Shown piece by piece: positions 4,998 to 64,000 of a stretch of 64,000 nt of DNA (positions are counted from its first letter, which is position 1; every line of letters starts with the position of its first letter). Source of the stretch: Sulfurimonas sp. HSL3-2. Its GTDB lineage: Bacteria > Campylobacterota > Campylobacteria > Campylobacterales > Sulfurimonadaceae. A model generated the notes under the pieces. That model searched no databases. It was not told the DNA's origin and worked only from the letters and a program-made list of their open reading frames with translations. The translations under genes were made by a program, and so were the position numbers. The stretch is taken from assembly GCF_039645965.1 (NCBI RefSeq), contig NZ_CP147917.1:2170001-2234000 (forward strand). The letters are read 5' to 3'.

Positions 4998-5006
4998 GTA
5001 GGGCAA

Positions 5007-6071
5007 ATGACTTCAAAAAAATATGTTAAGTACATCATTATCGTTTGTATTGCTTTTGTAAGTTACCATTTTGTTGTATGGAACTTATTTACTTCACAAA
5101 TTTTCAAACTAAAAGAAGGTACATCAGTTGGTGATTTAGGTAGAATGTCTTATCAAATAGACATGTTAGACCATAAAACATTAAAATATAACTTGCCTAA
5201 ACAACATATCAATAATACAAATTTTAAAGATAAAAAAATTGACATGATCACAATTGGCGACTCTTTTTCTAACGGTGAAGCTTTTGGTCCAAATCCCTAC
5301 TACCAAGACTTTTTAGCAAATAGATTCGATATAAACATCTTAAACCTATCAAAGTATAAGAGATACAATGCTTTTGAAACGATAGTTGGATTATATAATA
5401 GTGGATATTTAGCTAAAGTAAAACCAAAATGGATAGTAATAGAATCTGTAGAAAGACTAATCCCAGATAGATATGCTAAAGATATCGATTTTAATATTAA
5501 GGATGTAAAAGCTATTCCTGCTATAAAAATTACCAAGGTACCTACTATTTCTGTTGGTATGATAAATACAGCCAACTACAAGCTCCCATATTACACTGTA
5601 AAATATTATCTTGATGATCATGCCCAAAAATATGTCTACAAACTTAACTTAAACAAAAAATTATTCTCGACTGACAATGGAAACAAAATATTGGTATATT
5701 GCGATGATATTTCTCATATTCCTAAATTTACAACTAAAAATATTCAAAAGATCAATAATAATTTTAATAAATTAGCTCATCTCTTAAAAAACCTAAATAT
5801 CAAGCTTTATTTTATGCCGGCACCAGATAAGTATGATCTATATTATGACTTTATCACAAACAACAAGTATCCAAAAAATCATTTTTTTGATCAAATCAGA
5901 CCTTTAAAAAAAGATTACTATTTTATCGACACAAAGCAGATCTTATTACCATTGCTCCAAAGTGGGGTCAAAGATATTTACTGGATCGATGATACGCACT
6001 GGACACAAAAAGCAAGCTATGCTATTGCTAATAGTAAAACGTTTACGAACGATTCATTATTTCATAAATGA
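5007..6071 (+). CDS. AlgX/AlgJ-like SGNH-hydrolase O-acetyltransferase
   Basis: A 354-aa protein with one N-terminal membrane anchor (about residues 8-28) and a periplasmic SGNH-like domain. The expected catalytic elements are visible: ITIGDSFSNG with G84-D85-S86 as nucleophile motif, and a late D328xxH331 (IDDTHWT). AlgX/AlgJ proteins take acyl groups from an MBOAT partner and place them on glycan hydroxyls. The partner is the preceding gene, so the pair forms a plausible acetylation module. A TAGGGC ribosome-binding site precedes the ATG. No carbohydrate-binding module is obvious at the C-terminus, as in AlgJ rather than AlgX. Confidence 0.85.
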   Translation: MTSKKYVKYIIIVCIAFVSYHFVVWNLFTSQIFKLKEGTSVGDLGRMSYQIDMLDHKTLKYNLPKQHINNTNFKDKKIDMITIGDSFSNGEAFGPNPYYQDFLANRFDINILNLSKYKRYNAFETIVGLYNSGYLAKVKPKWIVIESVERLIPDRYAKDIDFNIKDVKAIPAIKITKVPTISVGMINTANYKLPYYTVKYYLDDHAQKYVYKLNLNKKLFSTDNGNKILVYCDDISHIPKFTTKNIQKINNNFNKLAHLLKNLNIKLYFMPAPDKYDLYYDFITNNKYPKNHFFDQIRPLKKDYYFIDTKQILLPLLQSGVKDIYWIDDTHWTQKASYAIANSKTFTNDSLFHK

Positions 6072-62579: not shown

Positions 62580-62828
62580 TTGTCACAAAAACAATCAAAA
62601 AAGACAACGTCAGATCGTATTAAACAGATATATGATCTTTGTAAAGAACATTTTGGCGATGTTCGTTTTGTCGGTATAAAATACCATGATAAAATAGGGT
62701 GGATAGCAAAAGCTCAATTTAACGGCGACTTTGAAAATCTGACTGCAGAAGGTAAAGATATAACTGACGCTCTTCGTAATCTCAAAAACAGAATCAAAAA
62801 GATTATAAAACGCTACAATGAAGTTTGA
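62580..62828 (+). CDS. 82-aa basic protein of unknown function
   Basis: Starts at TTG with AAAGGAAAAG just upstream; a TATAAT at 62531-62536 is a likely -10. The 82-aa product is lysine-rich at both ends (SQKQSKKTTSDRIKQIYDLC, and NLKNRIKKIIKRYNEV) with a central strand-like stretch DVRFVGIKYHDKIGWIAKAQF. It is predicted soluble and possibly nucleic-acid binding from charge alone; no family is recognised. A hairpin (AAACGGTC/GACCGTTT, 62837-62865) follows the stop. Confidence 0.7.
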   Translation: MSQKQSKKTTSDRIKQIYDLCKEHFGDVRFVGIKYHDKIGWIAKAQFNGDFENLTAEGKDITDALRNLKNRIKKIIKRYNEV

Positions 62829-63292
62829 TCGGAGTAAAACGGTCAACACTCCAGGGAGACCGTTTATGGTTGTAATATTATCATAGTAATCTTATACTAA
62901 ACAAAAAAACTTCATAGCATATTCACTGACTTAAATAAAATTAATTTTGTAAAATTCTTCTACTTTTTTACCAATGTGTGTAGAATTCACACTGTGTTCT
63001 AAAATGTGAAAAAACTATGTCCCAAAGATAGGGATCTCTTATAATTTACACCTTTTATAAGCATCGTTTTATATAAAATTATTCTTAAAGATGAGAATAT
63101 TCACACTAGCTAGAAAGCCCTATTTTGGGAGATTCAAGAGAACTTAAGAATAATAACGGCGGCTGTTATTTTCACAACCTTAAACTCTTTGAAAAGTTAT
63201 TCACATAGATTTTATTCTGCATGGACTTTTTGGAATGTTTCACATGAAACATTGTCAATTTTCATAAAACTACAATAATGTAGATAGTGCTT
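62829..63292. other. Gene-free A/T-rich region with DnaA-box cluster: candidate oriC part
   Basis: 464 bp between two convergent genes, with no ORF. TTCAC cores occur at 62922, 62986, 63100, 63171, 63200 and 63239, and once inverted (GTGAA at 63006); the best box is TTATTCACA at 63197-63205. TTCAC is the reported core of epsilonproteobacterial DnaA boxes. A near-parS palindrome closes the cluster. Most genes to the left, including rRNA, point leftwards, as expected for replication leaving this site. dnaA itself is not in the window, so this may be an ori half-site or a DnaA-binding locus. Confidence 0.5.
63236..63251. promoter_or_regulatory. parS-like site (one mismatch)
   Basis: TGTTTCACATGAAACA differs from the canonical 16-bp ParB site only at one central base (CACATG for CACGTG). 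It lies in the DnaA-box region, 283 bp from a perfect parS. Confidence 0.65.
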
Positions 63293-64000
63293 TTAAATCT
63301 CTTTTTTTAAGATAGATTCCAAGCACTCTTTTGCAAAATCAACATTGCTTTTAATTTTATACTCTTTACCTTTATATATAAACGAAAGTTCATATGCATG
63401 TAAAAGTAATCTTGATGCTCCTGTTGATATTATGCGCTCTTTACCTTTTAGTTCTCTATCGAGATACTTCGTCGTGATCTCTTCTTCTACACCATAAAGT
63501 GGATCACCGACAATCGGATGTTTCACGTGAAACAGATGAACTCTGATCTGATGTTGTCTTCCTGTGTGTGGATAGCACTCGACAAGCGTCATATCTAGAT
63601 CTTCAAAATATTCAATAGGCTTAAAAAATGTCTCTGAACTTTTACCGGATAGATCTACTTTGACTATAGAACGAAGAACACCGGATGTTGCATCTTTATT
63701 TACTTTCAAAGGCTCTTTACATGTAAGCTCCTTTTCAAACCTTCCATATACTAAAGCAAGATATCTTTTTTGCATGTCTCTCTCTTGAAACATCATCTTG
63801 ATATCTCTTTCGCTTTCTTTATTCTTTGCACATAAAACCAGACCACTTGTCTCCATATCGATACGGTGAGTTATGTTAGCATCCATCCCATACTGATACT
63901 TTACTTCATCTATTAATGAGTATGGCGTATATCTGTTTTGAGGATGGATAAGCATTCCGCTCGGTTTATCAAAAAGAACAAACTCTTCTGTTTCAAATGT
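63293..64000 (-). CDS. RluA-family pseudouridine synthase, 5'-truncated by the window
   Basis: The frame is open to the window edge: upstream of the ATG at 63955 it reads TFETEEFVLFDKPSG, continuing into MLIHP, which is the RluA-family DKPxGxxxHP motif, so the true start lies beyond 64000. ITHRIDMETSGLVL is motif II with the catalytic Asp (HRxD). HTGRQHQIRVHLFH and DPLYG are the C-terminal family motifs. It isomerises uridines in rRNA or tRNA; the exact target is not readable. A perfect parS and a TTACATGTAA copy (63717-63726) lie inside it. Confidence 0.92.
   Translation of the reverse strand, partial: TFETEEFVLFDKPSGMLIHPQNRYTPYSLIDEVKYQYGMDANITHRIDMETSGLVLCAKNKESERDIKMMFQERDMQKRYLALVYGRFEKELTCKEPLKVNKDATSGVLRSIVKVDLSGKSSETFFKPIEYFEDLDMTLVECYPHTGRQHQIRVHLFHVKHPIVGDPLYGVEEEITTKYLDRELKGKERIISTGASRLLLHAYELSFIYKGKEYKIKSNVDFAKECLESILKKEI
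63519..63534. promoter_or_regulatory. parS site (perfect consensus)
   Basis: TGTTTCACGTGAAACA, a full 16-bp palindrome identical to the bacterial ParB-binding consensus, embedded in the pseudouridine synthase coding sequence (encoding LFHVKHP on the minus strand). ParB sites cluster near replication origins. Confidence 0.85.

Follow-up and report, generated by a model that had tools for sequence, protein, structure and literature searches.

A conserved module of DnaA-type boxes and a 32-bp dyad beside parS in the Sulfurimonas/Sulfuricurvum family, possibly an accessory DnaA-binding element of the origin-centromere region

Results

DnaA-type boxes and parS sites in an intergenic gap

The window, that is, the whole 64,000-nucleotide stretch analysed here, covers positions 2,170,001-2,234,000 of the single-contig chromosome of Sulfurimonas sp. 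HSL3-2 (2,240,048 bp). Near its right end, a gap at 62829-63292 with a GC content of 29% separates two convergent ORFs, 62580-62828 (+) and 63293-64216 (-), and contains tracts with as little as 10% GC, a level also reached in oriC2. The features in and around the gap are listed in Table 1.

Table 1. Positions of the features in and around the gap, in window coordinates
Feature	Position	Strand	Remarks
82-aa ORF	62580..62828	+	Left convergent neighbour; kept here in many relatives
Stem-loop AAACGGTC-AACACTCCAGGGA-GACCGTTT	62837..62865	+	Stem covaries, loop nearly invariant
Weak DnaA-type box, TTCAC core 62922	62919..62927	+	Without conservation
Inverted DnaA-box pair TTCACACTGTGTTCTAAAATGTGAA	62986..63010	.	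Core of the conserved module
32-bp dyad ATAAGCATCGTTTTATATAAAATTATTCTTAA	63057..63088	.	Consensus TTMAG-N6-TTTATMTAAA-N6-CTKAA; essentially single-copy per genome
DnaA-type box ATATTCACA	63097..63105	+	Present in this genome, variable among relatives
GCCCTATTTTGGG block	63117..63129	.	Hairpin AAAGCCCTATTTTAGGGCTTT in relatives (by inspection), probably a bidirectional terminator
DnaA-type box ATTTTCACA	63168..63176	+	From the core count
Conserved third box AAAAGTTATTCACATA, core 63200	63193..63208	+	From the alignment of relatives
parS 1, TGTTTCACATGAAACA	63236..63251	.	Palindrome; exact core 63237-63250
RluD-like pseudouridine synthase gene	63293..64000	-	Runs on to 64216, past the window
parS 2, TGTTTCACGTGAAACA	63519..63534	.	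Within the rluD-like coding region; exact core 63520-63533

The gap contains TTCAC/GTGAA cores at 62922+, 62986+, 63006-, 63100+, 63171+, 63200+, and 63239+. The first-pass annotation had described seven cores in about 330 bp, six of them co-oriented, in an A/T-rich gap between convergent genes beside parS, and our recount agreed with this description: the seven cores span 322 bp, 6/7 share one orientation, and both parS sites are perfect. These two sites are the only exact GTTTCANNTGAAAC palindromes in the genome and both lie near the origin, as expected of chromosomal parS. DnaA-type boxes are located 30-320 bp from parS 1, placing boxes within the parS locus as in a Caulobacter-type centromere. 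Core 63239 is part of the parS palindrome and was dropped from the tally of DnaA boxes, so that six cores are independent.

Chance clustering of the cores was ruled out by dinucleotide shuffles of the gap (n = 20,000), which gave a mean of 1.1 cores, reached six in 0.04%, and never yielded at least seven. Moreover, oriC1, oriC2, and this gap were the only places in a genome-wide scan with at least three ATTCACA words within 400 bp. The clustering of the DnaA-type sites is genuine. Genome-wide, ATTCACA is depleted (194 copies vs 343 for the reversed word).

Several further features of the gap were observed. In the stem-loop at 62837-62865, the loop reads ACACWCCAGG, and seven of the eight stem pairs had changed on both sides among 19 distinct chosen copies. 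The element is mostly single-copy, next to the module described below, and its usual place is 74-186 bp to the left of the box pair; in G037, it is parted from the module and stays by ruvC/dnaA. It may act as an RNA or as a hairpin of single-strand DNA. In the present genome, CCCAAAGATAGGG (63021-63033) and CCCTATTTTGGG (63118-63129) could pair across ~85 bp. In most genomes of the family, a parS site lies in the rluD-like coding region, its distance to the stop codon downstream being about 219-267 bp, and the rluD-like gene is tandemly duplicated in many Sulfuricurvum-type genomes (L096, L097, L100, and others).

Location of the replication origin

The first-pass annotation had proposed the gap as a candidate replication origin without dnaA next to it, leaving open whether dnaA lay beyond the 64 kb or the gap was a separate DnaA-box locus. 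Both of these options turned out to be true. The dnaA gene (510 bits) was found at 124-1413 on the plus strand of the same contig which, taken as a closed circle, places it 6.9 kb from the end of the gap and outside the window. Based on reading of the translations, the genes between the gap and oriC1 are those for the RluD-like protein, PurB, NrdA, a small ORF, a low-molecular-weight phosphatase-like protein, a PhnA-like protein, and RuvC, followed by the canonical order ruvC-oriC1-dnaA-oriC2-dnaN and then gyrB. As in relatives, oriC2 ends in boxes, the DnaA-trio run CTACTACTA (at 1575), and an AT-rich tract.

Campylobacterota origins are recognised by clusters of TTCAC-core boxes, which the gap has, and by a position flanking dnaA (ruvC-dnaA or dnaA-dnaN), from which the gap is 6.9 kb away; no DnaA-trio run of three triplets was found in the gap. 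An origin in the gap was therefore rejected: the canonical bipartite oriC sits at dnaA and the gap is without a trio, so that the gap belongs to the origin region but is not the origin. The dnaA-dnaN region, at a distance of 7 kb, is where replication begins. In S. denitrificans, Jaworski et al. (PMC5043019) mapped the boxes and DnaA-dependent unwinding to this region.

The cumulative GC skew, which had been suggested as a check, supported the origin region as a whole. The skew, computed from separate stretches of the chromosome, had its minimum over 134 kb at genome position 2,788, just past dnaN, where it was only slightly lower than at the gap; its resolution is insufficient to discriminate between places 7 kb apart. 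Stretches sampled round the chromosome revealed two changes of skew sign, one close to the origin and the other at about 1.1-1.4 Mb, and a query with the S. denitrificans dif sequence (PMC2731167) found a dif-like site with one mismatch at 1,127,627. The GC skew and the dif-like site at 1.13 Mb place the origin and terminus as expected.

A module conserved in the Sulfurimonas/Sulfuricurvum family

To compare the gap among relatives, we collected the rluD-like gene from 101 genomes of the family, dnaA from the same genomes, and the DNA around both. The alignment pointed to a module, previously unnoticed and conserved in the Sulfurimonas/Sulfuricurvum family as judged from these sequences, that consists of an inverted box pair (TTCACA-N13-TGTGAA in the gap), the 32-bp dyad 70-71 bp on, and an GTTATTCACA box about 200-214 bp on. 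Among 133 distinct module copies, which were collected by pair plus dyad and thus contain both by selection, the distance from pair start to dyad start was 70 or 71 bp in 115. The GTTATTCACA box was found at 197-201 bp in 23 and at 206-214 bp in 78 of 108 copies. We do not claim helical phasing of these spacings, as the resultant was only 0.46-0.58 at 10.5-11 bp and, for the third box over all copies, nearly as high at 12-13 bp.

Conservation within the pair was assessed in 41 copies anchored on TTCAC-N15-GTGAA, in which the TTCAC and GTGAA cores are invariant by selection. The sixth base (TTCACA) and a central TG were also invariant, and the other central bases were 85-98% conserved. The pair usually follows TGTGTA and mostly has TTCTAA at its centre, and conservation of the flanks decays within ~10 bp. 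Sulfuricurvum-type genomes carry the module with a 24-bp pair. The dyad was detected in 78/101 genomes of the family, nearly always once, and gave scattered or coding-type matches only elsewhere in the phylum. When 84,980 species were scanned for pair plus dyad, 99 stretches were obtained. Among the 80 stretches listed, 78 carried titles of Sulfurimonas, Sulfuricurvum, related Campylobacterota, or unnamed bacteria; the remaining two, from Ruminococcus and Flavobacterium, are probably chance matches. In G081, which we took as S. denitrificans DSM 1251, the pair (2,188,237) and dyad (2,188,308) are located about 13 kb from dnaA.

Genomic position of the module

On the third-box side, the nearest recognised gene was rluD in all 122 copies that had a recognised gene there, whereas the pair side was occupied by the 82-aa ORF or rlmN in 88 and by ruvC in 33. 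The rluD-like gene usually bears parS. In the 54 genomes with dyad, rluD, and dnaA on one contig, the dyad lay 0.57-3.7 kb from rluD and 1.4-47 kb from dnaA. The longest separation was found in G037, in which the module stays with rluD 47 kb from dnaA. Since the module remains near rluD when parted from dnaA, these data favour a link of its position to the parS-bearing side. In most Sulfuricurvum-type genomes, dnaA is closer to the module than rluD is (medians 1.5 and 2.6 kb), and the link to parS therefore rests on few independent rearrangements. One genus (L122) has the order rluD-parS-module-ruvC-dnaA. The ancestral module site would have been between rluD and ruvC, with a rearrangement moving the module beside rlmN in the genus of the window and in Sulfurimonas.

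Box pairs of the same 25-bp geometry were found between ruvC and dnaA in families f2, f3, f4, f10, and f11, most of them enclosing a third box (TTCACANNTTTNTTCACANTGTGAA). The three-box block TTCACANNTTTNTTCACANTGTGAA recurs in the oriC1 of other Campylobacterota families (L172, L181, L182, and similar loci, near 5001-5025). The 2016 study (PMC5043019) reported no box pattern common to the origins. Within the same family, G051 of g11 has such a pair in oriC1, and other g11 genomes, e.g. G010, have a gap-type pair between rlmN and rluD.

Candidate protein for the dyad

Each dyad half reads TTMAG-N6-TTTAT. The HP1043/HsrA motif is a direct repeat, TTTAAG-N5-TTTAAG, 11 bp apart (PMC5253667), of which the first repeat fits the dyad half and the second is degenerate. 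The genome encodes an HP1043/HsrA ortholog of 224 aa (4.6e-107 to PDB 8uvx and 8.3e-88 to 2hqr). An HsrA/CosR-type response regulator as the dyad protein would be a guess from this motif likeness, and we regard it as a lead only because some halves carry TTCAG and the match to the second repeat is poor. A dif/difH identity of the dyad was rejected, as it lies near the origin rather than the terminus and its sequence is unlike dif/difH. A known noncoding RNA was likewise rejected: comparison with Rfam gave no credible match, and alifold of 71 copies predicted nothing beyond the 6-bp pair arms (-3.1 kcal/mol).

Discussion

We tentatively interpret the module as a conserved accessory DnaA-binding element of the origin-centromere region that is specific to the Sulfurimonas/Sulfuricurvum family; this is the explanation we prefer, although its probability falls somewhat short of even. 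DnaA would bind the inverted pair and the GTTATTCACA box, and the dyad between the pair and the third box would be occupied by a dimer of a second protein. Together, they would form a compact complex beside ParB-parS that would couple DnaA activity to centromere handling, as in Caulobacter, with replication itself starting at dnaA-dnaN. The conserved sequence, the constant spacing of pair and dyad, the single copy, the location near parS, and a canonical oriC elsewhere were observed, and from these the binding of DnaA, the second protein, and the part played in segregation are inferred. Recognition by DnaA is supported by the match of the box cores to the S. denitrificans DnaA-box consensus HHATTCACA, which was mapped by footprinting (Jaworski et al., PMC5043019), and by the occurrence of the same 25-bp pair geometry in oriC1 of other Campylobacterota families. 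The role at the centromere is supported by the Caulobacter precedent of DnaA at a centromere. A more specific version, in which an essential Campylobacterota response regulator of the HsrA/CosR type on the dyad would join DnaA on the pair in one centromere complex that times replication or segregation of the origin region, is quite improbable.

The nearest rival to the centromere interpretation, possible but with appreciably less than an even chance, is a locus of the datA, DARS, or titration type that controls DnaA and thereby the timing of initiation, in which the boxes flank a second-protein site and the complex alters the nucleotide state of DnaA or sequesters it near the origin. The layout of boxes, putative second-protein site, and box resembles datA (PMC5835720), and an origin-proximal enrichment of boxes fits titration (PMC12371093). 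One copy lies near the origin, and ATTCACA is otherwise scarce in the genome. However, the boxes are few for simple titration, and the module keeps to rluD/parS when separated from dnaA. To our knowledge, datA and DARS of E. coli have no tie to a centromere. It is also conceivable, but unlikely, that the main protein to recognise the sites is not DnaA but another one, e.g. a dyad protein with its own operators, with the likeness to TTCACA being secondary. The pair block is indeed conserved beyond the two boxes, with TGTGTA flanking it on the left and TG plus TTCTAA at its centre, and the dyad halves resemble the motif of a regulator whose ortholog is encoded in the genome. Furthermore, DnaA binding to the in-silico 'oriC3' of S. 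denitrificans was negative by EMSA (PMC5043019); PCR products served as fragments in that assay, and binding of some H. pylori boxes is restricted to supercoiled DNA. Against such a protein, the third box GTTATTCACA is a near-perfect DnaA box, the pair geometry recurs in oriC1 of other families, and the gap is without a known promoter-bearing gene.

Strand opening in the gap, as an origin or third sub-origin, is very improbable. The DnaA boxes, the tracts with as little as 10% GC, and the location at the skew sign change would fit this reading, but an intact oriC1-dnaA-oriC2 lies 7 kb off with the trio run in oriC2 rather than the gap, oriC2 is also where unwinding was mapped in S. denitrificans (PMC5043019), and the distance of the module from dnaA reaches 47 kb. 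We give hardly any credence to the idea that the conservation stems from a gene for a small RNA or from signals for transcription (a dyad promoter and a terminator hairpin): TATATAAA in the dyad is promoter-like, and hairpins occur at 62837-62865, which covaries, and 63117-63129, but the Rfam and alifold results argue against an RNA, and neither a promoter nor an RNA explains the conserved inverted boxes.

DnaA control and the coupling of replication to segregation are poorly known in Campylobacterota. As a compact and essentially single-copy element, the module offers a defined target whose 25-bp pair, 32-bp dyad, and third box are separately deletable in a Sulfurimonas amenable to genetics. 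The locus also serves as a warning that a DnaA-box cluster near the skew minimum need not be an origin.

The accessory element that we favour shares properties with several known systems. Like the bipartite oriC of Campylobacterota (PMC5043019), it has TTCAC-core boxes and the 25-bp pair geometry seen in oriC1 of other families, whereas it does not flank dnaA, is without a DnaA-trio, and coexists with a separate canonical oriC. The in-silico 'oriC3' of S. denitrificans (PMC5043019) was similarly predicted as a third region of DnaA boxes within this family. It may be identical to the module, in which case the negative EMSA could apply and would speak against the interpretation we prefer. E. coli datA requires boxes 2, 7, and 3, with an IHF site between them (PMC5835720); the module resembles datA/DARS as a single-copy locus with DnaA boxes flanking a putative second-protein site (pair, 70/71 bp, dyad, third box), and differs in lineage, spacing, sequence, and its place beside parS. 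Vibrio cholerae rctA/parS2 (PMC6399470) likewise has its initiator sites at the same locus as a centromere, but with RctB sites instead of DnaA boxes and on a secondary chromosome. In Caulobacter, DnaA binds the parS locus (Mera 2014, as cited in the review PMC6399470). Unlike that locus, the region described here carries a rigid module with a family-specific dyad; in both, the centromere has DnaA-type boxes and lies 7-8 kb from the origin.
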